This document shows, piece by piece, positions 35,104 to 60,791 of a stretch of DNA of 64,000 bases. The stretch is taken from positions 1 to 64,000 of the forward strand of contig CACMNV010000006.1 in the NCBI GenBank assembly GCA_902615025.1. The letters run 5' to 3'. The position numbers were made by a program, and so were the translations under genes. Source of the stretch: an uncultured SAR116 cluster alpha proteobacterium (GTDB lineage: Bacteria; Pseudomonadota; Alphaproteobacteria; Puniceispirillales; Marisalimonadaceae). The first letter of the stretch is position 1. Every line of letters begins with the position of its first letter. The notes under the pieces are model-generated. The model made no database searches and was not told where the DNA came from. It saw only the letters and a list, made by a program, of their open reading frames with translations.

Positions 35104-35165
35104 TAAAGATAATATTAGAAAAATTTTAATAAAATGACAAATAAAGTTTAAATATAATAAACTTA

Positions 35166-35969
35166 CTAAAACTTGAGATTAGTTTTTTTGAGAATTTCTT
35201 TTATCTCTTTAATTTCATTTTCTATAGATAAAACTTTTTTTTCTAAATTAAATTGAGAGTTTTGATTATCTATACTTTTGTCTTCAATTGTTTGATGTTG
35301 CATAGCATCAACAATTATACCTATAAATAAGTTTAAAACAGCAAAAGTTGTTATTAATATGAATGGTACAAAAAAAGCCCAAGCATATGGGTATTCTTCC
35401 ATTACAGGTCTAACGATTCCCATTGACCAGCTTTCAAGGGTCATAATTTGAAAAAGTGAGTACATTGAATCACCTATAGTTCCAAACCAATTTTCAAATT
35501 TGTTACCAAAAAAATTTGTAACAAGAACTGCTGATATATAAAAAATCAAAAGAATTATCGTACCTACAGAAGCAATGCCTGGTATAGCATAAAACATAGC
35601 TTGAATAACTTTTTTCATTGAGGGTATCATTGACAATAGTCGAAGGGCACGAAAAATTCTAAATGCTCTCAATATTGACAATGGACCAGAAGAAGGAATA
35701 AGAGCAATTGTTACAATTATAAAATCAAAAACATTCCATCCACTTTTAAAAAAACTCAATCTATATACAAATAATTTTATTATCAACTCAACTACAAAGA
35801 TTGATAAAGCTATTTTATCTATATAAGTTAAAACATTTCCAATTTTAGAGACTAATTTTTCACTTGTTTCAAGGCCAAGAGTTACCGCATTAATTAAAAT
35901 TACAAATGTTATGAAAACATTAATAATTTTTGATTCTATAAAGCTTTTTAGTAATTTAGAAAATCGCAT
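35166..35969 (-). CDS. Voltage-gated sodium channel, NaChBac type
   Basis: One-domain (six-helix) channel of 267 residues, probably a tetramer in the inner membrane. The S4 sensor has Arg at 101, 104, 107 and 110, every third residue (RAFRIFRALR). The selectivity filter is FQIMTLESWSMG at 173-184, nearly identical to the TLESW filter known for NaChBac-family sodium channels. S6 (LNLFIGIIVDAM) is followed by a cytosolic coiled coil, as in relatives. In marine bacteria such channels are linked to sodium-dependent motility and pH control. The flagellar genes farther right make that plausible here. Confidence 0.93.
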   Translation of the reverse strand: MRFSKLLKSFIESKIINVFITFVILINAVTLGLETSEKLVSKIGNVLTYIDKIALSIFVVELIIKLFVYRLSFFKSGWNVFDFIIVTIALIPSSGPLSILRAFRIFRALRLLSMIPSMKKVIQAMFYAIPGIASVGTIILLIFYISAVLVTNFFGNKFENWFGTIGDSMYSLFQIMTLESWSMGIVRPVMEEYPYAWAFFVPFILITTFAVLNLFIGIIVDAMQHQTIEDKSIDNQNSQFNLEKKVLSIENEIKEIKEILKKTNLKF

Positions 35970-36032
35970 AATATTAATATTTTTATTTATAAAATTTTAA
36001 AATAATTAGTCAAAGTAAAATAAAGCTTTTGT

Positions 36033-37640: not shown

Positions 37641-37654
37641 ATATTTTTCCCAAT

Positions 37655-38506
37655 TCAGAGGTAAGTTCCTTTAGACATTTTATCAGAAACTGTAGCTCTA
37701 ACTAAATATCTTGGTTCTGTAATATCGTAAGGTTGCCCTCTATGTACCATTGAACGATTATCCCAAATAATCAAATCAAAATCATCCCATTTATGTGAAT
37801 AAATATATTCTTCATTATTGATGAAATCATTTAAATATTTAAGTAATTTTGAGCTTTCAACATCTATCAGATTTTTAATTGATTTTGTATGAGATCCAAA
37901 ATAAACAGCTTTCTTATTATTCACCGGATTAATTTTTACCATTGGATGAACCACTGGTGGAAATTTATCTAATTCAATCTGGCTTACCATAGTTGGATCA
38001 ATTTTTGATCTGGAATGAGCAAAGTGATGAATTGCATCAAGATTATCAAGTTGTCTTTGGATAGATTGATCAAGTTTACTATAAATGTTTCTCATACATA
38101 TAAATTGAGTACTACCTCCAATTTTAGGTGTTGTTCTTCCATTTAAAATTGAGGCATGTGCTGGGTGTATTTTAAAAGAACTATCACTATGCCATTGTTG
38201 ATTAGCCCTATCATTTTTTGCTTGTTTATGCGAATGATCAACAACTTTACCATTTTCATCCATGTTGGTTAAAATAACTAGATTAGAATTTGTACCTATT
38301 GTCCCTGGTTTTGTTACTTCTAATTCACCAAAGTTTTTAGCAAATTCAAGTTGTTCTTCATTAGTTATTTTTTGATTTTTTAAAACAATTAGTGAATACT
38401 CCTCAAATAGAATTAAAATTTCATTTATTTCTTTTTTATTTGCTTTGTTAATTTTTAAATCTTTAATTTCAATTCCAAAATCCGGATGAGTTTTTTTAAA
38501 ATTCAT
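37655..38506 (-). CDS. TauD/TfdA family Fe(II)/2-oxoglutarate dioxygenase
   Basis: Non-heme iron dioxygenase that couples 2-oxoglutarate decarboxylation to hydroxylation. The 283 residues have iron ligands His106 and Asp108 in WHSDSSF and the distal His in MVHRGQPYD near 257. The 2-oxoglutarate-binding Arg lies in RYLVRATV near 270. Taurine dioxygenase is the best-known member, but the family also acts on 2,4-D and other compounds, so the substrate is open. It is the first gene of a minus-strand pair with the GMC oxidoreductase and is divergent from an operon ending in a TauE-like exporter. Confidence 0.9.
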   Translation of the reverse strand: MNFKKTHPDFGIEIKDLKINKANKKEINEILILFEEYSLIVLKNQKITNEEQLEFAKNFGELEVTKPGTIGTNSNLVILTNMDENGKVVDHSHKQAKNDRANQQWHSDSSFKIHPAHASILNGRTTPKIGGSTQFICMRNIYSKLDQSIQRQLDNLDAIHHFAHSRSKIDPTMVSQIELDKFPPVVHPMVKINPVNNKKAVYFGSHTKSIKNLIDVESSKLLKYLNDFINNEEYIYSHKWDDFDLIIWDNRSMVHRGQPYDITEPRYLVRATVSDKMSKGTYL

Positions 38507-38574
38507 TACTCTTTCCTTTTAAATTATTCATTAACCATATAATATTAAAGAAATTCATTTAAGGATGTCAATTT

Positions 38575-39555
38575 ATGAGTTCAAATAAATATAAAGTTTT
38601 AGTTGTACAAGGTTTGCATGAGCAAGGCTTAGAAATGCTAAAAAATAGAACTGATATTGAATTTAATGTTTTAATGAGTGATGATGAAAACAAGATATTA
38701 GAGGCCGCAAAAGATGTTAATGGTATCACCGTAAGAACAGCAAAAATTTCTAGTAAAATAATAGAAGCAGCAAATAAATTACAAGTAGTTTCTAGACATG
38801 GTGTAGGTTATGATTCAATTGATTTAGTATCACTAAATAATAAAAAAATTCCTCTGACTATAGCTGCACATTCAAATATGATTTCAGTTTCAGAGCAAGC
38901 AATGTTTTTTTTATTAGCCTTAAGTAAAAATGTATTTTATTACGATGATTTTACTAGAAAAGGAGATTGGACCAATAGATGGGATGTTAGAGCTTGGGAT
39001 TTAGCACAAAAAAATATTTTAGTTATTGGTTTTGGTAGAATTGGATCAAACTTTGTAAAAAGAGCATTGGCTTTTGACATGAATGTCTTTGTTTATGATC
39101 CATATGTTGAAAAAGAGAAGGTCAAGATCTCAGGTGCTATTCCAGTTGATAATATTAGTGATAATTTATCAAAGATGGATGCCGTTACTCTTCATTGTCC
39201 AAAGAATAACGAAACTACAGATTTATTCACAAAACAAGAATTTGATCTTATGAAAAAAAGTTCACTAATTATTAATTGTGCAAGAGGTGGAATTTTAAAT
39301 GAAGAAGATTTGTATGAAGCTCTTACAAGTAAGAAAATAGCTGGAGCTGGTTTAGATGTTTTCGATGTTGAGCCAACACCCTCATCTAATCCTTTATTTA
39401 AATTAAATAATGTAATTTTATCACCTCATATCGCTGGTGTGACAGTAGAATCAACTGTAAGAATGGCAACAGAAACTGTTCAAAATGTTCTAGATGTTTT
39501 AGATGATAAAATAAATCAATCAGTTGTTGTTAATAACAAAGAAATAGGTATGTAA
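38575..39555 (+). CDS. D-2-hydroxyacid dehydrogenase, SerA-like
   Basis: The 326 residues contain VVSRHGVGYDSIDL near 80, LVIGFGRIGSNFVKRAL (Rossmann) followed by the acidic turn VYDPYVEK suggesting NAD, NCARGGILNEEDL with the catalytic Arg, GLDVFDVEPTP with Glu and SPHIAGVTVES with His. It opens an operon with an HpcH/HpaI aldolase (stop and start share one base) and a TauE/SafE permease. AAGGATG lies 8 bases upstream of the ATG. It is a separate lineage from the dehydrogenases at 5077 and 6800. Confidence 0.9.
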   Translation: MSSNKYKVLVVQGLHEQGLEMLKNRTDIEFNVLMSDDENKILEAAKDVNGITVRTAKISSKIIEAANKLQVVSRHGVGYDSIDLVSLNNKKIPLTIAAHSNMISVSEQAMFFLLALSKNVFYYDDFTRKGDWTNRWDVRAWDLAQKNILVIGFGRIGSNFVKRALAFDMNVFVYDPYVEKEKVKISGAIPVDNISDNLSKMDAVTLHCPKNNETTDLFTKQEFDLMKKSSLIINCARGGILNEEDLYEALTSKKIAGAGLDVFDVEPTPSSNPLFKLNNVILSPHIAGVTVESTVRMATETVQNVLDVLDDKINQSVVVNNKEIGM

Positions 39556-40316
39556 TGAAAAAATTAAGTTTAAAAAAACAATGGGATCAAAATAAAAGTG
39601 TATTAAATGGATGGTGTTCAATACCGTCTACTGTAACTACTGAAATTATGTCTTTGAATAATTTTCATTCATTGACTGTGGATTTACAACATGGACTTGT
39701 AGATTATCAACAAGCACTAAATATGATTCAATCTATGAGCTCTGGAGAAATAACTCCTTTAGCTAGAGTGCCTTGGAATGAACCAGGTATAATTATGAAA
39801 CTTCTTGATGCAGGATTTCTTGGAATCATTTGTCCAATGATTAATAATGAAAATGACTGTAAGCAATTTGTTCAAACAACAAAATATGTTCCTCAAGGTT
39901 TTAGAAGTTCAGGTCCTACCAGAGCTGCTTTAATTCATGGATCTAATTATCATGATGAAGCAAACGAACATATCATTACCCTTGCTATGATAGAAACAGA
40001 GGAAGGACTAGAAAATGTCGAAAAAATTTCATCAGTAGAGGATTTGTCTGGAGTTTATATTGGCCCTTCTGATTTAAGTGTTTCATTGGGATTAAAACCT
40101 GGTTTAGATAGAACAGAAGAAGTAATGATCAATGCTATTGAAAAAATAAAAATAGCATGTAAGAAAAATAATAAAAAAATTGGTATTCATTGTCTTTCTC
40201 CTAATTATTTAAATCAAAAATTTCAAGAAGGTTTTGATCTGGCCACTATCGGAACAGATTTAAGGTTTTTCGCTGAAATTGTGGGAAAGAAGCTTTCAGA
40301 AATTACTCATGAGTAA
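39555..40316 (+). CDS. HpcH/HpaI family aldolase
   Basis: Second aldolase of this family in the window, 253 residues. It has VDLQHGLVDYQQ near 40, ARVPWNEPGIIMKLLDAG and GIICPMINNENDC, the YVPQGFRSSGPTRA segment, MIETEEGLENV with the metal Glu, and GVYIGPSDLSVSLGL with Asp. The loop SSGPTRA and the GPSDLS motif place it with the garL/HpaI type. It lies between a hydroxyacid dehydrogenase and a TauE/SafE permease. Together the three could cleave a keto-sugar acid and export or reduce the product. The substrate is unknown. Confidence 0.88.
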   Translation: MKKLSLKKQWDQNKSVLNGWCSIPSTVTTEIMSLNNFHSLTVDLQHGLVDYQQALNMIQSMSSGEITPLARVPWNEPGIIMKLLDAGFLGIICPMINNENDCKQFVQTTKYVPQGFRSSGPTRAALIHGSNYHDEANEHIITLAMIETEEGLENVEKISSVEDLSGVYIGPSDLSVSLGLKPGLDRTEEVMINAIEKIKIACKKNNKKIGIHCLSPNYLNQKFQEGFDLATIGTDLRFFAEIVGKKLSEITHE

Positions 40317-40319
40317 ATT

Positions 40320-41081
40320 TTGGCTTTAGATAATTTTTCCTATTACTTAATAATTATAGCTTCTTTTATTTTAGCTGGAGTATTAAAAGGTGCAACTGGC
40401 GCAGGCGCACCTATTATAACTATTCCTGTTATATCTGCATTTTACGATGTCAGGTTGGCTGTTGTATTAATGGTCGTTCCAAATTTTTTATCTAACATTC
40501 AGCAGCTTTATCATTTTAGAAAATCTATATTGCCCTTATTCGCTACATTTTCTTTTGCTTTGGGTGGAGGTGGAGGCGCATTTTTAGGAACAATATTTCT
40601 TGCTAATTTATCTCTTGATAGCCTTTCATTTGGTGTTGGTATATTAGTCATAATTTTTATCTCATTTAAGTTTTTTGTTCCAACATGGAAATTAGAATAT
40701 AAAAAATCAAAAAACCTTTTTTTCCCTTTTGGTTTTTTTGGGGGAGTTTTTCAAGGTGCAGCTGGAATTTCGGCACCTATATCGATAACATTTTTAAACT
40801 CCTTTAAACTAGATAGAAAAACATTTATCCCAACTATATCAGTGTATTTTATGATGATGTCAGTATTTCAAGCTCCTGCATTAATTCATTATGAATTTAT
40901 GAATTTTGAAATATTTGTGATAAGTCTCATTTGTACTGGCATACTAATTATCAGTATGCCTATAGGAAATAAAATTGCTAAAAGTGTTTCTGTAGAGTTG
41001 TTTGATAAACTCATTTTAATATTATTAGGAATTATATCTTTAAAAATATTTTTTGATTTTGGAATTAAATTTTATTTATAA
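40320..41081 (+). CDS. TauE/SafE family membrane permease
   Basis: Integral membrane protein of 253 residues with about eight hydrophobic helices in two repeats. The N-terminal ILAGVLKGATGAGAPIITIP and the second-half GVFQGAAGISAPISITFL are the duplicated TauE/SafE motifs. Family members export sulfite, sulfoacetate or related organosulfur anions, or import some acids. The start is TTG at 40320, 3 bases after the aldolase stop. Operon with the dehydrogenase and aldolase; its 3' end overlaps the convergent FecR-like gene by 10 bases. Confidence 0.85.
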   Translation: MALDNFSYYLIIIASFILAGVLKGATGAGAPIITIPVISAFYDVRLAVVLMVVPNFLSNIQQLYHFRKSILPLFATFSFALGGGGGAFLGTIFLANLSLDSLSFGVGILVIIFISFKFFVPTWKLEYKKSKNLFFPFGFFGGVFQGAAGISAPISITFLNSFKLDRKTFIPTISVYFMMMSVFQAPALIHYEFMNFEIFVISLICTGILIISMPIGNKIAKSVSVELFDKLILILLGIISLKIFFDFGIKFYL

Positions 41082-42943: not shown

Positions 42944-43852
42944 TTATTTATTGCCTAAAAAATGCTTTCCTAGGCAAGCTGGGGCATAATTATTATGTTT
43001 TAATTTGAACGATATTAAAGCTAAGGCTAAAATAGTTGCAAGATAAGGTAACATGTTTAAAAATTGTGATGGAACATCCCAACCTCTTGCTTGAGCAACG
43101 AATTGTAAAATTGTTATACCACCAAATATTAATGCGCCAATCAATAATCTTATAGGCATCCAAGAAGCAAATACGACCAAAGCTAGTGCTATCCAACCTT
43201 TACCTGCAGTCATTCCTTCAGACCAATGTGGTGTCAATGCCAATGGTATGTAAGCACCACCCATTCCAGCACACATACCACCAAATGAAGTACTTATCCA
43301 TCTTACTAACTTGACAGAGTAACCAATAGAATGTGCGCTATCATGATTATCTCCAACAGCTCTTATAATGATACCTAATTTTGTATTTTGAAACCCAAAA
43401 TGGATAAAAAATATTAAAAATATTGCAAAATATACAAGTATATCATTAGAAAACAAAATTTTACCTAAATAAGGTATGTCAGATAGAAAAATAATTTCTA
43501 ATTTAGGCAGTGAGGCTGCTGTTTTTCCTACAAAAGGTTCACCAATTAAACCTGTTAGAGCTGTAGCAAAAATAGTAAGACCTAGCCCTGTAGCAACTTG
43601 GTTTGTCATAAGAGTTATTGTAAAAAAAGAAAAAACAGTACTTATTAATATTCCGGCAACAGCTCCAAATAAAATACCTATGTATGGATTTCCAAAAATT
43701 AAAACAGAACCAAGTGCAGCAACAGCTCCACATAACATCATTCCTTCAACACCAAGATTTAAAACACCGCTTTTTTCAGTTACAAGTTCTCCTAATCCTG
43801 CTAGTAAAATTGGTATTGATGTTAAAAGTATTGTAATTAATAAGTTTTCCAT
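42944..43852 (-). CDS. ABC transporter permease (BMP type, second)
   Basis: Inner-membrane permease of the branched-chain amino-acid/BMP permease superfamily, 302 residues. It has an N-terminal LAGLGELVTEKSGVLNLGVE motif near residue 17 (typical of such permeases), several helices and the IIRAVGDNHDSAHSIGYSV coupling loop near 163. It overlaps the first permease by one base. Together with it, the dual-ABC ATPase and the BMP protein it forms a full nucleoside-type importer. Confidence 0.9.
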   Translation of the reverse strand: MENLLITILLTSIPILLAGLGELVTEKSGVLNLGVEGMMLCGAVAALGSVLIFGNPYIGILFGAVAGILISTVFSFFTITLMTNQVATGLGLTIFATALTGLIGEPFVGKTAASLPKLEIIFLSDIPYLGKILFSNDILVYFAIFLIFFIHFGFQNTKLGIIIRAVGDNHDSAHSIGYSVKLVRWISTSFGGMCAGMGGAYIPLALTPHWSEGMTAGKGWIALALVVFASWMPIRLLIGALIFGGITILQFVAQARGWDVPSQFLNMLPYLATILALALISFKLKHNNYAPACLGKHFLGNK

Positions 43853-44928
43853 TAGTTATCTTTCCTAATAGATATTTTATATTTTTGAATAGTCTCACCA
43901 GCGAGAAGAAAAAATAATAACATACCTTCAAAAATACCAGTAACTACTTTTGGAATTCCTAAAACCATTTGAGCATTGTCGGCTCCAAGTTTTGCTGTTG
44001 CAATTATAATACCTGCAATAACAACTCCATATGGGTTTAAACGGCCTAAAAAGGCAACAATTATTGCTGTAAAGCCATATCCAAAAGATACTTCTGGTTG
44101 AAGTCGTCCCATATTAGCAGAAACCTCTATTACTCCTGCAACACCGGATAATCCCCCAGATACAAGTAAAACATAAATAGTTATTTTATTTTTATTAAAC
44201 CCTGCAAATTCTGAGGCTCTTGCAGATGAACCAAAGATTTTTATTTGAAATCCTGGTAAAGTTTTATTGATGAAGAACCAAATTAATGGGCATAAAATTA
44301 AAGTAATAAAAATACCATAATGAAACTGACCTAAGAAACCAATAAACGGAAAGTCTACTTTACTAATTATTGCCCCATCAGGATAAACTTTAGATAAAGG
44401 AAAGCCAAAACTCATTGGATCACGTAAAGGGCCTCTAACAACAAAATCAATAAATAACATTGCGACGTAAACAAGCATTAAACTTACTAAAATCTCATTT
44501 ACATTTAATCTTACCTTTAAAATTGCAGGTATTGATGCCCAAATTGCACCACCTACAAAACCAATTAAAAACATTGAAAATAATAAAGTGTAAGTTTTTG
44601 TCTCAGGAAATAGTAATGCAAATGATCCTGCGCATAAAGCTCCGAGAATAAATTGACCCTCTGCTCCGATGTTCCAAATATTTGCTTTAAAGCAAAATAT
44701 CAAACCAAGACCAATAATAATAAGTGGACAAGCTTTAACAAATATATCTGCAATTCTGTCAGGTCTAGAAAATGGAGAAACAAAAACTTGATATAAGGAT
44801 TCTATAACTGGATAACTTAAAATTTTAAAAATTAATGAGCCAATTAGAATTGTCATGGTAATTGAAATTATAGGACTCAAAATAGTCCAAAAACTTGATT
44901 GGATTTTTCTTGGTGTAAATTCTATCAT
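43852..44928 (-). CDS. ABC transporter permease (BMP type, first)
   Basis: Inner-membrane permease of 358 residues with about nine helices. It has an ANIWNIGAEGQFILGALC motif near 84, the coupling-loop region IKIFGSSARASEFAGFNKNK and GLSGVAGVIEVSANMGRL. The length exceeds the second permease by an N-terminal helix, which is typical for this pair. It lies 11 bases downstream of the ATPase gene and shares a base with the next permease. Confidence 0.9.
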   Translation of the reverse strand: MIEFTPRKIQSSFWTILSPIISITMTILIGSLIFKILSYPVIESLYQVFVSPFSRPDRIADIFVKACPLIIIGLGLIFCFKANIWNIGAEGQFILGALCAGSFALLFPETKTYTLLFSMFLIGFVGGAIWASIPAILKVRLNVNEILVSLMLVYVAMLFIDFVVRGPLRDPMSFGFPLSKVYPDGAIISKVDFPFIGFLGQFHYGIFITLILCPLIWFFINKTLPGFQIKIFGSSARASEFAGFNKNKITIYVLLVSGGLSGVAGVIEVSANMGRLQPEVSFGYGFTAIIVAFLGRLNPYGVVIAGIIIATAKLGADNAQMVLGIPKVVTGIFEGMLLFFLLAGETIQKYKISIRKDN

Positions 44929-44939
44929 TTGAGCATTAT

Positions 44940-46469
44940 CTAATTTATTCCCATTAAAATACCAATATCCGTAGCAGAGATTTTTGATGTTATTTTTGGT
45001 GTTGAAAGAGATCCATTATTAATTACACAAATTTTATTTGATATTTCATAAATTTCATCTAAATCTTGACTTATCAATATGATAGCTTTTCCTGCTTTAG
45101 CTAATAGTAAAAGTTTACTTCTAATTTCACTGGCAGCACCAATATCAACACCCCATGTTGGTTGTGAAATAATCAATACTTTTGGATTAGCTTTTAATGA
45201 TCTACCAACAATAAATTTTTGTAAGTTTCCTCCTGACAATTGATCAGCTAATGGATTTGAATATGGGCATCTTACATCATTGTCCTTTATAATTGATATA
45301 GAGTCATTTGATGACATATTTGAACTTAACAATATATTATCAAGAAAATTATTATTTTTTGAATAAGCATTATAAAAGGTTAAAAAAGTATTTTCTGTAA
45401 GAGTTATATCAGGAACTGTTGCATGACCATTTCTTTCTTCAGGAACAAACTCAAGTCCTAAGTTTCTTCTGAATTTAATATTAGTGTTTCCAATTTTTTT
45501 ATTTTCAAAAATAATTTCATCTGGATCGCCTAATGTTTCACCACTTAATGCATTCATCAGTTCTACTTGTCCATTCCCAGCAACTCCAGCAATACCAAGG
45601 ATTTCACCATATTTAACATTGAAACTTATTTTTTTTAATTCTGTACCAAATTGAGATAATTTTTTTCTATTTAAATTGTTGATTGAAATAGCAGTTGATA
45701 AATTTAAATAACTACTTTTAGAAATTTTAGTTATTTTTTTTACTTTTTTACCAATCATTTTTTCAGCCATACTTGTGGTAGATATTTTAGAAGTATCGGT
45801 TGAAGAAATAACTTTTCCACTTCTTAGAATCGTTACCTTGGAAGCAATTTGTTTAATTTCATTTAATTTGTGGCTTATATACAAAATACTACATCCTGAA
45901 TTAGCTAATTTTCTTAATACTTTAAATAATTGATTTATTTCTTGTGGTGATAAAACAGATGTTGGTTCGTCCATTATAAGGAGTTTTGGGTTTTGCAATA
46001 AACATCTAATAATTTCAACTCTCTGTTGTTCACCGACTGATAAATCTAAAACTTTTTTTGTAGGCTCAATCGACAGGCCCCATTGTTTAGCAGTTATTGA
46101 AATTTTATCTTCTAAATGTTTTTTTGTTATTTTTTCATCAAGAGATATTAATATATTTTCAGAGACAGTTAGAGCTGGAAATAATGAAAAATGTTGAAAA
46201 ACCATCCCAATGCCGTAACTTCGTGCTTCTCTAGGATTATTAATTATTACATGATTATCATTAATCAAAATTTGACCAGCAGTAGGTTTTACAACTCCGT
46301 ATAAACATTTAACTAAGGTAGATTTTCCAGCACCATTCTCTCCTAATAATGCATGGATCTCTCCTTTTTTTATATTCAAAGATATAGAATCATTAGCTAA
46401 AAATTGATCAAAAGTTTTTGACAAATTTTTAACTTCAATAAATGTCATCGCATCTAAATTATTCGTCAT
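44940..46469 (-). CDS. ABC transporter ATP-binding protein, dual ATPase (BMP type)
   Basis: Fusion of two ABC domains, 509 residues. Domain 1 has Walker A LGENGAGKSTLVK near 43, the signature LSVGEQQRVEIIR and Walker B LLIMDEPTS. In domain 2 the Walker A position reads GVAGNGQVEL (degenerate, as usual in this family), the signature is QLSGGNLQKFIVGR, and the Walker B VLIISQPTWGVD is altered. Domain 1 is the likely catalytic half. The upstream small membrane-protein gene overlaps it by 11 bases; Met8 at 46448 is an alternative start. Confidence 0.93.
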   Translation of the reverse strand: MTNNLDAMTFIEVKNLSKTFDQFLANDSISLNIKKGEIHALLGENGAGKSTLVKCLYGVVKPTAGQILINDNHVIINNPREARSYGIGMVFQHFSLFPALTVSENILISLDEKITKKHLEDKISITAKQWGLSIEPTKKVLDLSVGEQQRVEIIRCLLQNPKLLIMDEPTSVLSPQEINQLFKVLRKLANSGCSILYISHKLNEIKQIASKVTILRSGKVISSTDTSKISTTSMAEKMIGKKVKKITKISKSSYLNLSTAISINNLNRKKLSQFGTELKKISFNVKYGEILGIAGVAGNGQVELMNALSGETLGDPDEIIFENKKIGNTNIKFRRNLGLEFVPEERNGHATVPDITLTENTFLTFYNAYSKNNNFLDNILLSSNMSSNDSISIIKDNDVRCPYSNPLADQLSGGNLQKFIVGRSLKANPKVLIISQPTWGVDIGAASEIRSKLLLLAKAGKAIILISQDLDEIYEISNKICVINNGSLSTPKITSKISATDIGILMGIN

Positions 46470-48712: not shown

Positions 48713-49669
48713 CTACATTATGCCCATTTCTTTATAAAATTTTGCAGCTCCTGGATGAACTGGAACTGCAGCTCCGTTAACAGCATCTTTCATCAAAACT
48801 TTTTTCCAAACGCTTTTTACTTTAACGAATTCACTATGATTATCCCAAAAAACTTTAGCCATTTTGTAAACTAAATCTGTTGGTAAATCTTTATGAACAA
48901 TCATAGAAGTTACTATGCCCAACGTAGGAATGTCCTTGTTGAGAGATTTGTAAGCACTTGCAGGTATTTTTCCGTAAATATAACCTGGATTATTTTTAAC
49001 GATCCTATCAATCCTCTCTTTTGGTAAACCAATAAATCTTATTCCAGGGCTGTTTTCTAATTCAATAAAACTAGCTTGAGGAACTGAAGTAGCAGCCATA
49101 AAAACATCAGCTTGACCATCTTTCATTAAAGCTACTGATTCCTTATAACTCACCATATGGACAACTCCACCATTTTTTTTGATAGTTTCAAAATTAAAAC
49201 CATAATCTTTAATAATTGATTCACAAAAGGCTGTTCCAGTCCATTTTGGTTTACCTGGACTTATATTCGCATTTTTCATGTCCTCAAAACCTTTAATTTT
49301 AGAATCAGCTCTGACTGCTACCTGAAAAGCTGCTGGATACAAAGTAGCGAAATATCTTACATTTTTATGATTTTTTTTAAACTTACCTTTTGCATTCCAA
49401 CCATTAGCAACAGTATGAGCGTAAGACCAACCAATCTCAGCGTCACCTCCATTTACAGACATGACATTTGATATGCCACCACCAGAAGTGTTAGATGTTG
49501 AAATTCCTTTAATGTTACTTTCAAGTGTTTGCATTACTTTTGCACCTAAAGGATACCATGAACCTCCAGAAGGACCAGACACCATCCTTACAAATTGGTC
49601 TGCATTTGCTATAGTGGCCACAATACTAATTGAAGACGCAATAGCAAAAGTTTTTAAGAACTTTTTCAT
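48713..49669 (-). CDS. TAXI family TRAP transporter solute-binding protein
   Basis: Periplasmic substrate-binding protein of 318 residues, starting at the ATG 49669 with GGAGG 8 bases upstream; an in-frame TTG 15 bases earlier is rejected. MKKFLKTFAIASSIS is the signal peptide, ending ATIANA. The mature start QFVRMVSGPSGGSWYPLG with the GPSGGSWYP loop is the TAXI signature. The SYKESVALMKDGQADVFM and AATSVPQ segments bind substrate. The gene is expressed first in a minus-strand run through the TRAP permease and then the BMP ABC importer, and it is divergent from the CoA-catabolic operon. Confidence 0.94.
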   Translation of the reverse strand: MKKFLKTFAIASSISIVATIANADQFVRMVSGPSGGSWYPLGAKVMQTLESNIKGISTSNTSGGGISNVMSVNGGDAEIGWSYAHTVANGWNAKGKFKKNHKNVRYFATLYPAAFQVAVRADSKIKGFEDMKNANISPGKPKWTGTAFCESIIKDYGFNFETIKKNGGVVHMVSYKESVALMKDGQADVFMAATSVPQASFIELENSPGIRFIGLPKERIDRIVKNNPGYIYGKIPASAYKSLNKDIPTLGIVTSMIVHKDLPTDLVYKMAKVFWDNHSEFVKVKSVWKKVLMKDAVNGAAVPVHPGAAKFYKEMGIM

Positions 49670-49761
49670 AATTATTTCCTCCAAAATTATTAATTATTAC
49701 AGTTCACTAATTATTTCTTACTGAGTCAACATTTAACAATAATATTAGTGAAAATTTTTAA

Positions 49762-49781
49762 AATGTTATTATTATAACATT
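49762..49781. promoter_or_regulatory. Candidate operator palindrome in the divergent gap
   Basis: aatgttat and ataacatt, 4 bases apart, form a near-perfect dyad in the 132-base gap between the divergent TAXI gene and the lyase operon, 20 bases before the lyase start. A GntR-, LacI- or TetR-type repressor could bind, but no regulator gene is adjacent. AT-rich chance palindromes are possible. Confidence 0.35.
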
Positions 49782-49801
49782 CATCGTGTTGGAGGGTTAA
49801 T

Positions 49802-50746
49802 ATGGATTTAGATGTAAAGGAAGTAGTTTTAACTGAAGTTGGAACTCGTGATGGGTTTCAATCTGAAAAAAAAATAATAAGTACCGAAGATAAAATTATG
49901 CTTATCAACGAACTAGTAAAAGCTGGTTTTAAGCGAATAGAATATTCTTCATTTGTCTCTCCAAAAGCTATACCCCAATTAGCAGATGCAGCCGAAGTCA
50001 TTAAAGGAGTTAATCGAAATAATAATGTAACCTTTACTGCTTTGGTTCCAAATCTAAGAGGTGCTATTAGAGCTTTAGAGTGTCGAATAGATGAAATTGT
50101 AGTTTTTTTATCAGCTTCAGAAAGTCATAACAAAAAAAACCTTAATAGATCAATCAATGAATCTTTAACTGGTTTTGAAGAAGTTGTTAAGTTAGCTAAT
50201 GATAATAATATTCCTGTACATGGTGATATATCAACAGCTTTTGGGTGTCCTTTTGAAGGAAATGTTGAATATAAAAAACTTGTTGAAATTTCTAAGCAAT
50301 ATAAAGGACTTGGTTTTAAAGGAGTTACTTTAGGTGACACAACAGGAATGGCAACTCCTCCCATAGTGAAGTCAGCAATTAGAGAAATTCAAGACAATGT
50401 TCCAGATTTTGAAATCACTTTACATTTTCATAATACAAGAGGTGTAGGACTTGCTAATGTTTTAGTAGGATTAAACGAAGGTATATATTTATATGAAAGT
50501 TGCTTTGGAGGAATAGGTGGTTGTCCATTTGCGCCAGACGCAACAGGTAATATTTGTTCAGAAGACCTTGTTTATATGATGAATGAGATGAATATTAAGA
50601 CAGGAATAGATATTAATCATTTAATAAAAATAGCCAAAGAGGCAGAGAGAATTTTAGAGTATAAATTACCCGGACAAGTTATGCATGCAGGAGAAAGATT
50701 AAAGAAATACTCCCTTGAAGACGTTAAAACTGCAAAAGGTAATTAA
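49802..50746 (+). CDS. HMG-CoA lyase-like enzyme
   Basis: DRE-TIM metallolyase of 314 residues, related to 3-hydroxy-3-methylglutaryl-CoA lyase, which cleaves HMG-CoA to acetyl-CoA and acetoacetate. VGTRDGFQSE holds the metal Asp. HFHNTRG gives the two metal His residues, and the signature FGGIGGCPFAPDATGN holds the catalytic Cys241 and the Asn ligand. All expected residues are present. GGAGG lies 7 bases before the ATG. It heads a six-gene operon with a CoA-transferase 3 bases downstream, so the true substrate may be another 3-hydroxy-3-methyl-acyl-CoA such as citramalyl-CoA. Confidence 0.88.
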   Translation: MDLDVKEVVLTEVGTRDGFQSEKKIISTEDKIMLINELVKAGFKRIEYSSFVSPKAIPQLADAAEVIKGVNRNNNVTFTALVPNLRGAIRALECRIDEIVVFLSASESHNKKNLNRSINESLTGFEEVVKLANDNNIPVHGDISTAFGCPFEGNVEYKKLVEISKQYKGLGFKGVTLGDTTGMATPPIVKSAIREIQDNVPDFEITLHFHNTRGVGLANVLVGLNEGIYLYESCFGGIGGCPFAPDATGNICSEDLVYMMNEMNIKTGIDINHLIKIAKEAERILEYKLPGQVMHAGERLKKYSLEDVKTAKGN

Positions 50747-50749
50747 CTT

Positions 50750-51895
50750 ATGTTTAATGAAGGAGCATTATCTGGGATCAAAGTTATTGATTTGACAAGA
50801 GTAATTTCTGGGCCTTTTTGTACTTTATTATTAGCTGACATGGGAGCTGAAGTTATAAAAATTGAGCCACCAAAAGGAGATAATGTAAGGAATCAAGGCG
50901 AATTTGTAGATGGTTATAGTTCATACTTTGCTCAATTTAATAGAAATAAAAAATCTGTTGTCTTAGATTTATATAAAAATAATGATAAAGAAAAATTAAA
51001 ACTTTTATTGAAAAGTGCTGATGTAATAGTCGATAATTTTAGACCTGGTGTTCTCGCCAAAATGGGATTAGATAGTGAAATTTTAACTGCAATAAATCCT
51101 AGATTAATTCAAGCATCAGTAAATGGCTTTGGTAGTACTGGAAAATATAGTCAAAGACCAGCTTTTGATTTTATTGCACAAGCTATTTCTGGTTTTATGT
51201 CATTAAATGGATCTGAAAAAACTGGACCAGTAAGAACAGCAGCTCCAATTTCTGACTTAATTGCAGGTTTGTATTGTGCATTTGGAATTGTAAGCGCAAT
51301 TAATGCAAGGCATAATACAAAAAAGGGGCAAGTAGTTGAAACAAGTTTAACTTCTAGTTTAATATCTCTTATGGCTTATTTATCAGCTGAATATTTTGTA
51401 ACAGATAAAACTCCAAGAAAATCTGGTAATGATCATCCAATTTTATCACCTTATGGTTTATTCAAGACAAAAGATGGTAATATTGCAATTGCTCCTGCAA
51501 ATGACAAATTATGCGAAATTTTTTTAAGAACTTTAAATTTAGAAAATTTACTTGAAGACGAACTTTATAAAACGAACTCTTTAAGAATGATCAATAGAGA
51601 TAAACTAAATGAGATAATTAATCAAACAACAGAATTAAATACTACAGACTATTGGATTAAGAAATTAAATGAAAGTGGTTGTCCTGCTGGAGAGGTTTTA
51701 GACATGAAGGAAGCTTTGAATGATCAATTAGTTGAAGATACTGACATGGTTATAGTATCTGATGGACCAGATGATAGAAAAATAAAAATGACAGGATTTC
51801 CGGTTAAATTATCAGATACCCCAGCTCAGTTATTTAGGTCTCCACCTAAGCTAGGAGAGCATACTGAAGAAATATTATCTAAGATTAAAAATTAA
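50750..51895 (+). CDS. Class III (CaiB/BaiF) CoA-transferase
   Basis: Moves CoA between acyl donors such as succinyl-CoA and a free carboxylate. The 381 residues have the N-terminal VIDLTRVISGPFCTLLLADM, GAEVIKIEPPKGDNVR, the DNFRPGVLAKMGLD segment, and catalytic Asp169 in the APISDLIAG motif, exactly where the family places it. It lies 3 bases after the lyase stop. The pairing of such a transferase with an HMG-CoA-lyase-like enzyme usually means the operon activates a free dicarboxylic acid before cleavage. Confidence 0.93.
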   Translation: MFNEGALSGIKVIDLTRVISGPFCTLLLADMGAEVIKIEPPKGDNVRNQGEFVDGYSSYFAQFNRNKKSVVLDLYKNNDKEKLKLLLKSADVIVDNFRPGVLAKMGLDSEILTAINPRLIQASVNGFGSTGKYSQRPAFDFIAQAISGFMSLNGSEKTGPVRTAAPISDLIAGLYCAFGIVSAINARHNTKKGQVVETSLTSSLISLMAYLSAEYFVTDKTPRKSGNDHPILSPYGLFKTKDGNIAIAPANDKLCEIFLRTLNLENLLEDELYKTNSLRMINRDKLNEIINQTTELNTTDYWIKKLNESGCPAGEVLDMKEALNDQLVEDTDMVIVSDGPDDRKIKMTGFPVKLSDTPAQLFRSPPKLGEHTEEILSKIKN

Positions 51896-51910
51896 TTTTT
51901 GGAGTTATTA

Positions 51911-52705
51911 ATGAATTTACAATATGATACTATAAACTTTGAAGTTGTTGAAAATATTGCCATTATACGTCTCAATAGGCCAAATAGTTATAATTCTTTA
52001 AACGCAAAAATGGCAAAAGAACTTTTAGAAATTTCTTATGAATGCGATACTAATAACAAAATAAGAGCAATTATATTAACTGGAGAAGGTGAAAAAGCAT
52101 TTTGTGCTGGTGGTGATTTAAAATCGTTTCATGAATCTGGAAATATTGGAAAACATTTAAAAATGGTTACTCACGATCTTCATGGTGCAATAACAAAGTT
52201 TTCAAGAATGAATGCTCCTTTATTAGTTGCTGTTAATGGAGTAGCAGCTGGTGCAGGATTATCATTTGTTGGTTTTGCTGATTTAGCTATTGCAAAATCT
52301 AGTGCAACCTTCGTTTCTGCATATACTAAAGCAGGTTTAACGCCTGATGGTTCTTCAAGTTATTATTTACCAAGAATAATTGGTATTAGAAAATATCTTG
52401 AATTAGTTATGACAAATAAAGTTTTGTCTTCTGAAGAAGCTCTTGCATGGGGTCTTTTAAACAAAGTATATGATGATAAAAAATTCTGGAGTGAAACACT
52501 TAAATTAGCTGATGATTTGTCAAAGGGTCCTACATTAGCTTATGGAAAAACTAAAAGATTAGTACATAATTCACTTAACTCTACTTTAGAAACTCAAATG
52601 GAACTTGAAACAAAAATGATTTCTGAATCAGCAGAAACAAATGACGGTCAAAAAGGCGTTCAAGCTTTTCTTAAAAAAGAAAAACCTAATTTTGAAGGCA
52701 AATAA
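51911..52705 (+). CDS. Enoyl-CoA hydratase/isomerase (crotonase)
   Basis: Crotonase-fold enzyme of 264 residues, started at ATG 51911 (GGAG 7 bases upstream) rather than at a TTG 12 bases earlier. It has oxyanion-hole motifs KAFCAGGDLKSF and GVAAGAGLSFVGFADLAIA. In the catalytic region SAYTKAGLTPDGSSSYYLPR, the usual first Glu (hydratase) is replaced by Thr and the second acid is Asp. This resembles PaaG-like isomerases more than classical hydratases. It could hydrate an unsaturated dicarboxyl-CoA or shift its double bond; the residue pattern makes the isomerase role worth testing. Confidence 0.88.
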   Translation: MNLQYDTINFEVVENIAIIRLNRPNSYNSLNAKMAKELLEISYECDTNNKIRAIILTGEGEKAFCAGGDLKSFHESGNIGKHLKMVTHDLHGAITKFSRMNAPLLVAVNGVAAGAGLSFVGFADLAIAKSSATFVSAYTKAGLTPDGSSSYYLPRIIGIRKYLELVMTNKVLSSEEALAWGLLNKVYDDKKFWSETLKLADDLSKGPTLAYGKTKRLVHNSLNSTLETQMELETKMISESAETNDGQKGVQAFLKKEKPNFEGK

Positions 52706-52711
52706 TTATTT

Positions 52712-53791
52712 ATGAAAATATTAGCTTTGAGAGGTGATGGTATTGGTCCTGAAATAGTGGATGTAACGATTAAAGTTTTAAAAACAATTTCTCAAAAATT
52801 TAATTTTAATTTGGATTTAATTTATTCAGACATTGGGTTCTCTTCTCTAAAAAAAAATAAAACTACTTTTCCAAATGAAATTTTGAAATTATGTAGTGAA
52901 GTGGATGGTATTATTTTAGGACCAGTGGATCATAATAATTATCCACCAAAAAGTGAAGGTGGATTAAATCCATCTGGTGAATTAAGAACTAAATTAAAAT
53001 TATATTCTAATATTCGACCAGCTAAAGCATTTAAAGGTACTAATTGTATTTTAGACAAAATAGATCTAGTAATTGTCAGAGAAAATACAGAAGGTTTTTA
53101 TGCTGATAGAAATATGTTTAGTGGAAATGGTGAATTAGAAATTGAGGAAGGAACTGGAATTTCAATTAGAAAAATTACAAAGAAAGCGTCAGAAAATATT
53201 GCAAAAAGAGGTTTTGAAATTGCGAAATTAATGAATAAAAATAAAAAAGTTAATGTTCATGCAATTCACAAGGCAAATGTTTTAAGGTTAACAGATGGGA
53301 TTTTTTTAAATGCTTGTAGAAATATTTCAAAAAAATATCCAGAAATTAATTATCATGAAATGTTAGTCGATGCTGCAACTGCGCATATGGTTAGAAATCC
53401 AGAACAATTTGATGTTCTAATAACAACTAATATGTTTGGAGATATTTTATCAGATCTAGCCTCAGAACTTTCAGGATCATTAGGTCTTTCGGGTTCTTTA
53501 AACGTAGGTGATACAATACCAATGGCACAAGCTCAGCATGGTGCGGCAACTGATATTATGAATAAAGGTATTGCAAACCCAATATCTTTGATTTTCTCTA
53601 CAGCTATGCTTTTGGATTGGTTAGGAAAGCAAAAAGGACAAGAGATTTATATTAAAGCTAATCAATTAATTTTTAAAGTTGTAGAAAACATTTTAGAAGA
53701 AAATAAATTTTTAACTCCTGATTTAGGAGGCAATTCGTCTACAGTGAAATTAACTGATCATATCATTGAAAGGATAGAAAATCATGAATGA
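52712..53791 (+). CDS. Isopropylmalate/tartrate dehydrogenase-like oxidative decarboxylase
   Basis: Member of the isocitrate/isopropylmalate dehydrogenase family, 359 residues. It begins MKILALRGDGIGPEIVD. It has IILGPVDHNNYPPKSEGG, SGELRTKLKLYSNIRPAK with the substrate-binding Arg residues, VIVRENTEGFYADRN, HKANVLRLTDGIF (catalytic Lys), the metal Asp in FGDILSDLASEL, and AQAQHGAATDI in the NAD site. Its place in an operon with PrpF and CoA-ester enzymes argues for a catabolic substrate and not leucine synthesis. It overlaps the PrpF gene by 8 bases. Confidence 0.9.
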   Translation: MKILALRGDGIGPEIVDVTIKVLKTISQKFNFNLDLIYSDIGFSSLKKNKTTFPNEILKLCSEVDGIILGPVDHNNYPPKSEGGLNPSGELRTKLKLYSNIRPAKAFKGTNCILDKIDLVIVRENTEGFYADRNMFSGNGELEIEEGTGISIRKITKKASENIAKRGFEIAKLMNKNKKVNVHAIHKANVLRLTDGIFLNACRNISKKYPEINYHEMLVDAATAHMVRNPEQFDVLITTNMFGDILSDLASELSGSLGLSGSLNVGDTIPMAQAQHGAATDIMNKGIANPISLIFSTAMLLDWLGKQKGQEIYIKANQLIFKVVENILEENKFLTPDLGGNSSTVKLTDHIIERIENHE

Positions 53792-54881
53792 TTTAAGATC
53801 CATACCAGCATATTTAATGAGAGGAGGAACCTCAAAAGGATTAGTTTTTCATAAAAAAGATTTACCTAATGATAGAAATTTATTAAGTGAATACTTATTA
53901 AAAATAATGGGTTCTCCTGATATAAGACAAATTAATGGAATAGGTGGAGGAACATCTGTAACAAGCAAGGTTTGTATAATATCTAAAAGTTTAGAAAAAA
54001 ATGTAGATATTGATTACTTCTTTGCTCAAGTTGAAGTAGATAGAAAGCATGTAGATTATGCTCCAACATGTGGAAACATGTTATCGGCTTTAGGTCCTTT
54101 TGCCATTGAAGAAAGTTTAGTAGAAACTCATAATGACATTACACAAGTGAATGTAAAGTCAATAAACACTGATGCTTTAATTACTTTAAATGTTCCAACG
54201 CCAGATGGGAAATTAAAATATTCAGGTGATTTTAAAATTGACGGTGTACCAGGAACAGGATCTCAAATTTTAATGAATTTTAATAATCTAGAAGGTAAAA
54301 TTACAGGGAATTTATTTCCAACAGGTAACATAGTAGATACTTTTGATGGGGTTAAAGTCACATGTTTTGATCTTGCAACTTCTATGATAATATGCAACGC
54401 CAAAGATTTTAATATTATTGGAAATGAGAGCTCAAAAGAATTAAATCGTAATAAACAACTTTTTGATAAAATTGAAAAAATTAGATTACTTGCTGCAAAG
54501 AAAATGGGAATGGGCGATGTTAAAGGAAAAGTTTTGCCTAAAGTCTCATTATTATCAAAAAGTGCTAATAAAAATTCTATAATTTCAAGATATTTTACTC
54601 CTTACACATGTCACGAAACTCACGCAGTTACTGGAACTTGTTGTGTTGCATCTTCCTGTTTCATTCCTGGAACTGTTGGATTTAGATTATTAAATAAAAG
54701 GGAAAGTTTAAATTTTAATTCAGAAATTATTAAGATTGAGCATCCGATGGGTTCTATAGAATGTATAATTGTTCTTAATTCAAATTTTAAAAATAATTTA
54801 GCTTCAAAAAAAGACTTGGTAAAATCATGTGGTATTTATAGAACATCTAGAATTTTAATGAAGGGTCAAGTTTATTTCTAA
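53784..54881 (+). CDS. PrpF-like isomerase (aconitate/methylitaconate isomerase family)
   Basis: Diaminopimelate-epimerase-fold isomerase of 365 residues. It starts SIPAYLMRGGTSKGLVFHKK, the PrpF signature (IPAxxMRGGTSKG). Conserved Cys in YAPTCGNMLSALGPFAIEE near 97, VPGTGSQILMNFNN, and HETHAVTGTCCVASS near 285 support the family. Members move double bonds in unsaturated tricarboxylates or dicarboxylates (2-methylaconitate, methylitaconate, 4-oxalomesaconate). The substrate here is unknown. It overlaps the upstream dehydrogenase, so the two steps are probably linked. Confidence 0.9.
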   Translation: MNDLRSIPAYLMRGGTSKGLVFHKKDLPNDRNLLSEYLLKIMGSPDIRQINGIGGGTSVTSKVCIISKSLEKNVDIDYFFAQVEVDRKHVDYAPTCGNMLSALGPFAIEESLVETHNDITQVNVKSINTDALITLNVPTPDGKLKYSGDFKIDGVPGTGSQILMNFNNLEGKITGNLFPTGNIVDTFDGVKVTCFDLATSMIICNAKDFNIIGNESSKELNRNKQLFDKIEKIRLLAAKKMGMGDVKGKVLPKVSLLSKSANKNSIISRYFTPYTCHETHAVTGTCCVASSCFIPGTVGFRLLNKRESLNFNSEIIKIEHPMGSIECIIVLNSNFKNNLASKKDLVKSCGIYRTSRILMKGQVYF

Positions 54882-54909
54882 GCGTTTAAATTTATATAAG
54901 TAAAACAAT

Positions 54910-55920
54910 TTGAATTATTTTTTTAGTATTTTTTTTGCAGTATTTGGAGGTTTTGTAGCTTACAAAATTAACATTCCTCTTCCATGGATGTTAGGGCCAT
55001 TATTTGTGATAGGTTTTTTGTGTGCCATTAAGGTTGAATTAACACTCCCTAAAAAACCACTTCCATTATTTAGAGCCTTACTTGGATGTGTTATAGGAAC
55101 AAATTTCACTGATGAAATTTTCAGTAATATTAATCAGATTGGCAAGTCATTGTTTTTTCTACCTATTTTTGTAATCATAATGATTTGTTGTACCTATTTT
55201 GTTTTAAAAATTATCATGAATTATGATAAAAAAACCTCTTTAATTGGATCTATGCCAGGAGGATTAAATGAAATGGTTCTTCTAGTATCTGAGATTGGTG
55301 GAAATGAAAGAATAGTAACTTTATTGAATACAACTAGGATTATAATAGTAGTTACAATTGTTTCAATTCTAACCCATTTATTTGCTAAAAACATCGCATA
55401 TGAAACTTCTGAAATTTTATATTTTTCACATTTAGATGACTTGTTTTTTATTTTTTTAATTTCAATTATTGGTTTTTATACTGGAAAATTTTTATCTATT
55501 CCAGGATACTCTATAATTGGCCCTATGTTGCTTTCAAGTTTTTTTCATGGATTTGGTATAATAAATTTATCACCAAATATTATTTTGATTATTGTAATAC
55601 AAATTTATCTAGGTTCAAATCTAGGTTTATATTTTAAAGATATCAAATTAAAAGAATTTTTAGGCCCCATCAAAGCTGGAGTTTTAAGTACGTTTATTTC
55701 TTTTGTTCCACTTTGTTTATTTTTATATGTTTTAAATTTTTTTGGGTATGACCTTTTATCTTTAATTTTATCTTATGCACCAGGGGGACAAGCAGAGATG
55801 TGTATTCTTACATTATCTATTGGTGGAGATATTGTATTTGTTAGCATACACCACGTGTTTAGAGTTTTTTTTGTTATATTTTTGGCAACTATTTTAAAAA
55901 AATATCTATTAAAAATTTAA
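54910..55920 (+). CDS. AbrB-duplication membrane protein
   Basis: Multi-spanning membrane protein of 336 residues from the AbrB duplication family (TIGR03082), often misnamed ammonia monooxygenase. NIPLPWMLGPLFVIGFLC in the first half and SIPGYSIIGPMLLSSFFHGF in the second show the duplicated motif; SMPGGLNEMVLLVSEIGGN and YAPGGQAEMCILTLSIGGD are the paired glycine-rich loops. The function is unproven. Its position at the end of an acid-catabolic operon suggests transport of a substrate or product. The likely start is TTG 54910. Its end overlaps the convergent FliL-like gene by 4 bases. Confidence 0.8.
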   Translation: MNYFFSIFFAVFGGFVAYKINIPLPWMLGPLFVIGFLCAIKVELTLPKKPLPLFRALLGCVIGTNFTDEIFSNINQIGKSLFFLPIFVIIMICCTYFVLKIIMNYDKKTSLIGSMPGGLNEMVLLVSEIGGNERIVTLLNTTRIIIVVTIVSILTHLFAKNIAYETSEILYFSHLDDLFFIFLISIIGFYTGKFLSIPGYSIIGPMLLSSFFHGFGIINLSPNIILIIVIQIYLGSNLGLYFKDIKLKEFLGPIKAGVLSTFISFVPLCLFLYVLNFFGYDLLSLILSYAPGGQAEMCILTLSIGGDIVFVSIHHVFRVFFVIFLATILKKYLLKI

Positions 55921-59972: not shown

Positions 59973-60791
59973 ATGTTAAATATAATTAAATCGTCATTAA
60001 ATGCAAATATGAGAGGTATCTCTCTTGTTTCAAACAATATAGCTAATAGTAATACGACTGCTTTTAAAAAAAGTTATAGTAATTTTTCAGATATATATTC
60101 TAAGACCATTGGTGATGATCCAAAAGGATTTTCAGGGATGGGAGTAATTAATGATTCTCCAAGAAAACAGATGTTTCAAGGACCACTTAAGCAGACTGAT
60201 GGTGCATTAGATTTAGCAGTAAGTGGATTAGGTTTCTTAACATTAGCTAGTCCTAACAATAATGAAAATAGATTTTATACGAGAGATGGAAGTTTAGGGT
60301 TATCCAGTAATGGAGAGGTTATAAATCAGCAAGGTCTAAATCTTCTTGCACACCCAGTTGTTGGTAATGCCACATATAATCCAGCTATTCTTGAAAAGGT
60401 AATTATACAACCTAGTATTACAGATACATTAGGCAATACCAGAATCCTTACAAATGTAAATGTTTCACCATCAGGCGTTTTAAAAGCTATTTACGGATTA
60501 GATGAAGAAGTTGTAATTGCTAAAATACCTCTTACTTCTTTTGAAAGTATGGAAGCATTGCAATCTGAAGGGAACAATCTTTTCACACCCACAACTAAAT
60601 CAGGCGAACCTATAGTTGGAATAGCATTAGAGAAAAATATGGGTGAAATAATCCCGGGATTTTTAGAGGGTTCTAATGTAGAAATAACAGATGAGTTAGT
60701 AAAGATGTTAAAATATCAACAAGCTTATTCAGGAAATTCAAGATTGTTGCAAACTGAAATAGATATCACAAAAAGACTCATAGACAGATAA
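59973..60791 (+). CDS. Flagellar hook/basal-body rod family protein (FlgE/F/G)
   Basis: Secreted axial protein of 272 residues. The N-terminal rod motif is SLVSNNIANSNTTAFKKSYS; the middle has DGALDLAVSGLGFLTLAS and the YTRDGSLGLSSNGEVIN segment. The C-terminus LKYQQAYSGNSRLLQTEIDI is the matching coiled coil. FlgF, FlgG and a short FlgE share these parts, and length cannot decide between them. Single plus-strand gene convergent with the next, in a flagellar island. Confidence 0.9.
   Translation: MLNIIKSSLNANMRGISLVSNNIANSNTTAFKKSYSNFSDIYSKTIGDDPKGFSGMGVINDSPRKQMFQGPLKQTDGALDLAVSGLGFLTLASPNNNENRFYTRDGSLGLSSNGEVINQQGLNLLAHPVVGNATYNPAILEKVIIQPSITDTLGNTRILTNVNVSPSGVLKAIYGLDEEVVIAKIPLTSFESMEALQSEGNNLFTPTTKSGEPIVGIALEKNMGEIIPGFLEGSNVEITDELVKMLKYQQAYSGNSRLLQTEIDITKRLIDR

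Follow-up and report, generated by a model that had tools for sequence, protein, structure and literature searches.

The locus described here raises the question of which compound is taken up and degraded by genes arranged around a short divergent region in an uncultured SAR116 cluster alphaproteobacterium. The window, i.e. the whole stretch of DNA that was analyzed, covers 64,000 nucleotides (positions 1 to 64,000 of the forward strand of contig CACMNV010000006.1, assembly GCA_902615025.1) and comes from a genome of 1.52 Mb that is 74% complete. On one side of the divergent region lie the receptor and permease genes of a TAXI-type tripartite ATP-independent periplasmic (TRAP) transporter. On the other side lies an operon coding for a lyase of the 3-hydroxy-3-methylglutaryl-CoA (HMG-CoA) lyase family (HMGL), a class III CoA-transferase (CaiB), a crotonase (ECH), a LeuB-like dehydrogenase, a PrpF-like isomerase and an AbrB-type membrane protein, separated in this order by 3, 3, 6, -8 and 28 bases, the LeuB-like and PrpF-like open reading frames (ORFs) sharing an 8-base overlap. 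All these genes are intact ORFs at the coordinates of Table 1 and each family was confirmed with Pfam, in agreement with the layout put forward in the preliminary description. We propose, with moderate confidence, that the operon would serve carboxylate catabolism, with one arm for CoA-dependent cleavage and another for isomerization and decarboxylation of free acids.

The conservation of the block was followed in the SAR116 family. PrpF matches were found in 34 of 37 family genomes (set f1, G000-G036), the remaining three being only 54-60% complete, and order and orientation are identical wherever the contigs reach: TRAP-TAXI one way, HMGL-CaiB-ECH-LeuB-PrpF-AbrB the opposite way, with AbrB consistently last. 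This order is kept in at least four genera, with protein identities of 47-98% (TAXI 75-98%, HMGL 66-94%, PrpF 54-95%, AbrB about 47-95%), and the LeuB genes of SAR116 single-cell genomes and metagenome-assembled genomes (MAGs) are 87-97% identical to that of the window. A chance arrangement is ruled out: each of the 39 family genomes that have a TAXI match also has an operon-type HMGL about 1.1 kb from it on that contig. Between congeners, dN/dS was 0.014-0.204 for every gene. The residues checked are invariant in 25 family loci (23 of the 25 for HMGL R16 and D17, the number that covers them), apart from a single Lys/Arg substitution at residue 18 of PrpF. The catalytic residues reported earlier as intact (HMGL D17, H208, H210, C241 and N250; CaiB D169) are thus all present and invariant in the loci examined. 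Strict synteny and purifying selection argue for a carboxylate-catabolism operon. The comparison of gene neighborhoods showed co-occurrence of the full block throughout the SAR116 family; outside it, the two arms were only seen separately.

In the CoA arm, the lyase exceeds the PRK05692 cut-off and keeps the catalytic Arg, Asp, Glu, two His, Cys and Asn of HMG-CoA lyases. In a maximum-likelihood tree it forms one clade with the lyases of L152-L155 (support 100/99), apart from the leucine-pathway lyases and from a second 100/99 clade made of L199, L201 and L203, whose lyases adjoin a class III CoA-transferase. The operon lyase thus falls in a third, uncharacterized, CoA-transferase-linked clade. 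L199, L201 and L203 are HMGL-CaiB-GntR triplets of three Chloroflexi genomes, with GntR as a candidate regulator; judging by the gene pair, we take them to encode citramalyl-CoA lyase and citramalate CoA-transferase, L199 being probably the Chloroflexus locus of the (R)-citramalyl-CoA lyase. Assignment as a Chloroflexus-type (R)-citramalyl-CoA lyase was rejected (37% identity, outside that clade), as was the leucine-pathway enzyme LiuE, which falls in a separate clade. The family genomes carry the canonical copy elsewhere, in a leucine cluster (L165) that includes a separate HMGL as well as a hydratase and methylcrotonyl-CoA carboxylase-like subunits, these identities being partly assigned by reading the sequences. 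Because the family has this cluster with another HMGL and hydratase, the operon is not the leucine pathway.

The CoA-transferase is a class III enzyme with an invariant Asp169, and its closest solved relatives are E. coli YfdE (265 bits) and human SUGCT (258 bits), the succinate-hydroxymethylglutarate CoA-transferase. The oxalate, mesaconate and glutarate equivalogs were all discarded below their cut-offs (296 vs 522, 291 vs 700 and 286 vs 750 bits, respectively), and the protein reaches no other equivalog cut-off either. Orthologous, adjacent HMGL-CaiB pairs (51-59% identity) were detected in four other alphaproteobacterial genomes; in L153 and L154 the pair is followed by DctP-DctQ-DctM, and in L156 DctPQM comes after a CaiB orthologue alone, with no HMGL. 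Such repeated association with TRAP importers favors a minimal logic in which a substrate would be imported, activated and cleaved. The clusters L153:5103-10547 and L154:9072-14153 appear as simpler relatives of the CoA arm.

The preliminary description had also invoked a transferase, hydratase and lyase logic, and on this point the crotonase disagrees. By motif alignment, the positions of the hydratase glutamates (Glu144/Glu164 equivalents) are occupied by Ser122 and Tyr142, invariant in the 25 loci, as is Asp150, which aligns with PaaG Asp136. The best solved relatives are the Thermus thermophilus PaaG structures, and D136 of PaaG has been described as a proton relay (PMC9493321). PaaG shifts the double bond of dehydroadipyl-CoA from delta3 to delta2 and a separate hydratase, PaaF, acts next. 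With the equivalent of D136 present, the protein is of PaaG/delta3-delta2-enoyl-CoA isomerase type and is more likely an isomerase than a hydratase. An enoyl-CoA hydratase, including methylglutaconyl-CoA hydratase, was rejected as both catalytic glutamates are absent, and the PaaG equivalog proper (TIGR02280) for its score of 193.6 vs a cut-off of 345.15 bits. Homologues elsewhere are 41-52% identical and never adjoin other operon genes.

For the LeuB-like protein, membership of the dehydrogenase family (PF00180) stands, but identity with LeuB itself does not: 3-isopropylmalate dehydrogenase was rejected at 226.4 vs 353.2 bits, N86, S88 and G89 replacing Val residues of the Sulfolobus enzyme. 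The score for tartrate dehydrogenase is also below its cut-off (206 vs 470 bits), and the isocitrate dehydrogenase (IDH) profile gave 282.7 vs a cut-off of 510 bits, with Asn/Ser at the positions of the gamma-carboxylate Ser/Asn pair. Asn86 and Ser88 align with the Ser and Asn of solved isocitrate dehydrogenases, S113 and N115 in E. coli numbering. Their presence at these positions makes it likelier that the substrate bears a polar or carboxylated side chain than an isopropyl group. The protein is a member of a broad subfamily marked by a conserved YPP..EGG.NPSG.LR loop, whose neighboring genes are too varied to name a substrate.

The closest solved relatives of the PrpF-like protein are YbhH, LigU and 3-methylitaconate isomerase. 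Lys62 and Cys96 are invariant in the loci examined; one deposited LigU sequence has Met at the position aligned with K62, which is consistent with a deliberate mutation of a catalytic residue. Two functions were tried and rejected, namely 4-oxalomesaconate tautomerase (GalD; NF033377, 428.9 vs a cut-off of 440 bits) and 2-methylaconitate isomerase (PrpF proper, 181.4 vs 440.55 bits). Neither fits, because a LigB-type dioxygenase was found in 0 of 41 family genomes and PrpB above its cut-off in only 1 of the 41. The methylcitrate cycle was discarded on the same PrpB count and on the PrpF score, far below the prpF cut-off. The SAR116 PrpFs are sister to PrpFs linked to tripartite tricarboxylate transporters (TTT), some of them without LeuB. 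These TTT-linked PrpFs score above the cut-off for 4-oxalomesaconate tautomerase, yet no genes of an aromatic pathway were seen nearby, a probable over-annotation.

The two arms have separate relatives. Side-by-side LeuB and PrpF genes recur within TctC-TctA operons, which were seen in Mameliella, Pseudovibrio, Ruegeria, a Rhodobiaceae MAG and two genomes of the same order. Most of these operons also encode an AbrB protein, and many have genes for a 2-hydroxyacid dehydrogenase and a regulator of the GntR type. In a quick tree, a single clade of the subfamily (21 rows, SH-aLRT 92) takes in all LeuB proteins encoded at most 160 bases from PrpF, SAR116 included, together with L106, where PrpF is about 1 kb off on the opposite strand. 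Outside the family, each pair is found without the other: no CoA genes accompany LeuB-PrpF, and neither LeuB nor PrpF accompanies HMGL-CaiB. The SAR116 operon is thus best described as a junction of an HMGL-CaiB unit with a LeuB-PrpF-AbrB unit, the PaaG-type crotonase standing between them. Conserved TctC-TctA-LeuB-PrpF operons, uncharacterized, were noted in L072, L086, L087, L111, L129, L130, L043 and L049. Since each pair operates in separate operons elsewhere, the linear series proposed earlier (isomerization, oxidative decarboxylation, activation, cleavage) was not upheld.

The receptor and the fused DctQM permease both score above curated cut-offs, as in a TAXI-TRAP transporter; the permease, part of the importer, lies just beyond the segment 48713-55920 of the preliminary description. 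The receptor ORF was listed from a TTG, and the ATG of MKKFLKT at 49669 is the likelier start. A TTGAC element, conserved on the minus strand in an alignment of 24 sequences, occupies a -35-like place for the TAXI gene; a consensus promoter scan returned 3 candidate sites where 1.5 were expected, a weak signal, and the divergent region had no Rfam match. Outside the family, TAXI orthologues (44-67% identity) were found in L163, L164 and L211-L216; L163, L164 and L213 have a gene for a PRK08199-type thiamine-diphosphate enzyme after the permease. L164 additionally carries a crotonase and two acyl-CoA dehydrogenase-like genes upstream of the TAXI-TRAP orthologue. TRAP import of the operon's substrate is plausible. 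The earlier statement that the cluster imports its substrate is in line with the synteny in 39/39 family genomes, but this synteny concerns one family only, and orthologues elsewhere have other neighbors.

The gene content, its conservation, the intact active sites, the two-unit ancestry and the isomerase-type site of the crotonase are established by the data; the individual reactions, which we infer from the enzyme families, their order and the link to import are proposals. The substrate probably comes from outside the cell and is a branched or unsaturated di- or tricarboxylate; as a guess, it may be a C5-C6 acid of the aconitate, itaconate-mesaconate-citramalate or 3-methylglutaconate type. 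The tricarboxylate transporters of the related operons and the N86/S88 pocket would fit a carboxylated compound. The divergent TAXI-TRAP system would be the likely importer, with AbrB as a possible accessory membrane transporter. The class III CoA-transferase would add CoA, probably from succinyl-CoA, to one carboxyl, and the PaaG-type crotonase would shift the C=C bond from delta3 to delta2. Hydration could take place elsewhere or by the same crotonase, and the HMGL-type lyase would split the resulting 3-hydroxyacyl-CoA into acetyl-CoA and a keto acid. In the other arm, the PrpF-family enzyme would move the double bond of a free unsaturated acid by proton transfer via K62/C96, and the IDH-like enzyme would oxidatively decarboxylate a 2-hydroxy-3-carboxy form to a 2-oxo acid. 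That both arms form a single pathway, the PrpF and IDH-like steps preceding CaiB, the PaaG-type isomerase and the HMGL-type lyase, so that two formerly separate units would give the SAR116 family a dedicated carbon source, is a doubtful extension of this proposal.

Several observations weigh against the two-armed carboxylate operon with its own importer. A dedicated hydratase is not among the operon ORFs; alignment of the divergent region, promoter scans and Rfam scans revealed neither a regulator gene nor a shared operator; the TAXI orthologues of other families are never beside HMGL, CaiB, LeuB or PrpF in the stretches seen; the ABC (ATP-binding cassette) transporter genes of the left flank are as syntenic with the TRAP genes as the operon is; and the two arms were seen together in the SAR116 family alone, so they may serve two substrates. 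The nearest rival starts from this last point: two independent functions would share the operon, HMGL-CaiB-crotonase acting on a hydroxy- or unsaturated dicarboxylate of the citramalate or 3-hydroxy-3-methylglutarate type and LeuB-PrpF-AbrB on a tricarboxylate such as trans-aconitate, which PrpF would convert into cis-aconitate for housekeeping aconitase and IDH-like oxidation, both drawing on the same organic-acid pool. Elsewhere each unit stands by itself beside a different class of transporter (DctPQM vs TctC-TctA), some TTT operons have PrpF without LeuB, and aconitate isomerases are known in the PrpF superfamily (PMC11495376). The strict order, the gaps of 3-28 bases or overlap and the single adjacent importer of all members suggest one pathway instead, and we consider the sharing of an operon by two functions possible, if somewhat unlikely.

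The importer could also be unrelated to the enzymes and carry, for example, glutamate or a compound used by a thiamine-diphosphate enzyme, in which case the divergent arrangement would be frozen synteny; this would be compatible with either reading of the enzymes, so that the likelihoods given here are not mutually exclusive. The orthologues beside PRK08199-type enzymes, the equally conserved ABC genes and the L-glutamate TAXI-TRAP documented in Cereibacter (PMC12632250) are in its favor, but the lyase stays about 1.1 kb from the receptor in all 39 TAXI-bearing genomes of the family, while the right flank of the operon varies across genera, and we regard an unrelated importer as unlikely. The known route of itaconate degradation (CoA-transferase, itaconyl-CoA hydratase, citramalyl-CoA lyase), here run by unusual paralogues, would share the activation and cleavage logic, and in the SAR116 operon too a CaiB enzyme adjoins a CoA lyase; it is improbable, as the described hydratase and CitE-like lyase families are not among the operon ORFs, the HMGL-type lyase has no sequence relationship with Rv2498c, a CitE-like lyase (PMC6689899), and the crotonase is isomerase-like. 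A side branch of gallate or protocatechuate 4,5-cleavage could be suspected from the tautomerase score just under its cut-off and from LigU among the closest solved relatives, but is barely conceivable in a family devoid of LigB-type ring-cleavage dioxygenase in the 41 genomes scanned, all the more as TTT-linked PrpFs pass this cut-off away from aromatic genes. The carboxylate operon with a CoA arm and a free-acid arm remains our preferred reading. In the open-access literature, we found no described pathway containing all the operon genes, and no work combining PrpF, isopropylmalate dehydrogenase and TTT or describing this SAR116 cluster, in agreement with the earlier remark that the combination is not a described pathway.

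Table 1. Coordinates and assignments of the features of the divergent locus, in positions of the window.
Feature	Coordinates	Strand	Basis
TRAP permease, fused DctQM type, 669 aa	46653..48662	-	TIGR02123, 627 bits vs cut-off 320.65; PF06808; syntenic across SAR116 family
TAXI-type TRAP receptor	48713..49684	-	TIGR02122, 211 bits vs cut-off 84.35; PF16868; 75-98% identity within family
Divergent intergenic region	49685..49801	none	conserved TTGAC on - strand, -35-like place for TAXI gene
HMGL-family CoA lyase, DRE-TIM barrel	49802..50746	+	PRK05692, 356.8 bits vs cut-off 246; R16, D17, E47, H208, H210, C241, N250
Class III CoA-transferase (CaiB/Frc/SUGCT-like)	50750..51895	+	PF02515, 412.6 bits; nucleophile Asp169
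Crotonase, PaaG-type active site	51899..52705	+	D150, no Glu pair; probable delta3-delta2-enoyl-CoA isomerase
LeuB-like, isocitrate/isopropylmalate-dehydrogenase family	52712..53791	+	PF00180, 289 bits; YPP..EGG.NPSG.LR subfamily motif
PrpF/LigU/GalD-family allylic isomerase	53784..54881	+	PF04303, 323 bits; K62, C96
AbrB-duplication membrane protein, possible accessory transporter	54910..55920	+	PF05145/TIGR03082, 188 bits vs cut-off 94.7; TTG start

Other regions of the window were also inspected. The ABC genes occupy 42944-46469 (minus strand); the highest scores of their permeases and ATPase are against putative 'B6' ABC families but stay under the cut-offs, and across the family synteny with TRAP is as strict for the ATPase and the second permease as it is for the operon. 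Positions 33556-41081 hold another organic-acid region, with an acyl-CoA ligase, a GMC (choline-dehydrogenase-like) protein, a TauD-like dioxygenase, a PGDH-like dehydrogenase and an HpaI/GarL-like aldolase. At 59973-60791, a gene of flagellar basal-body rod type (FlgF/FlgG), assigned by sequence, suggests motility in a small, low-GC SAR116 genome.

SAR116 bacteria are common in surface-ocean bacterioplankton and the dissolved organic acids that they consume are poorly known; a strictly conserved operon with intact enzymes and a high-affinity importer makes the question of their carbon source testable. A function found for it would extend to three widespread, uncharacterized groups, namely the CaiB-linked HMGL clade, the LeuB-like subfamily with the NPSG motif and the TTT-linked PrpF group, the last being currently labelled 4-oxalomesaconate tautomerase by profile scores.

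Among known systems, the itaconate route (ict-ich-ccl) uses MaoC/CitE-type enzymes; it resembles the SAR116 operon by a CoA-transferase followed by a lyase that yields acetyl-CoA and a keto acid, but the families of the SAR116 operon are non-homologous and include no hydratase. Leucine catabolism, by methylglutaconyl-CoA hydratase and HMG-CoA lyase, has in common an HMGL-family lyase with the same catalytic residues and a crotonase in the cluster, whereas the SAR116 lyase falls in another clade and its crotonase is PaaG-like. The succinyl-CoA:(R)-citramalate CoA-transferase (EC 2.8.3.20) and (R)-citramalyl-CoA lyase (EC 4.1.3.46) of Chloroflexus (PMC8307300) are likewise an adjacent class III CoA-transferase and HMGL-family lyase with activation and cleavage chemistry; they differ by identities of 37% and 33%, a separate, well-supported lyase clade and the lack of adjoining crotonase, LeuB and PrpF. 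The HMGL-CaiB-DctPQM clusters L153 and L154 contain orthologues of the lyase and transferase (51-56% identity), with a DctP-type TRAP transporter and no crotonase, LeuB or PrpF. Finally, the TTT-linked LeuB-PrpF-AbrB operons of Rhodobacterales and others (Ruegeria, Mameliella, Pseudovibrio) have TctC-TctA in place of TAXI-TRAP, lack HMGL-CaiB-crotonase and frequently include GntR and a 2-hydroxyacid dehydrogenase, but share with the SAR116 operon the same LeuB clade, a sister PrpF group and an AbrB-family protein.

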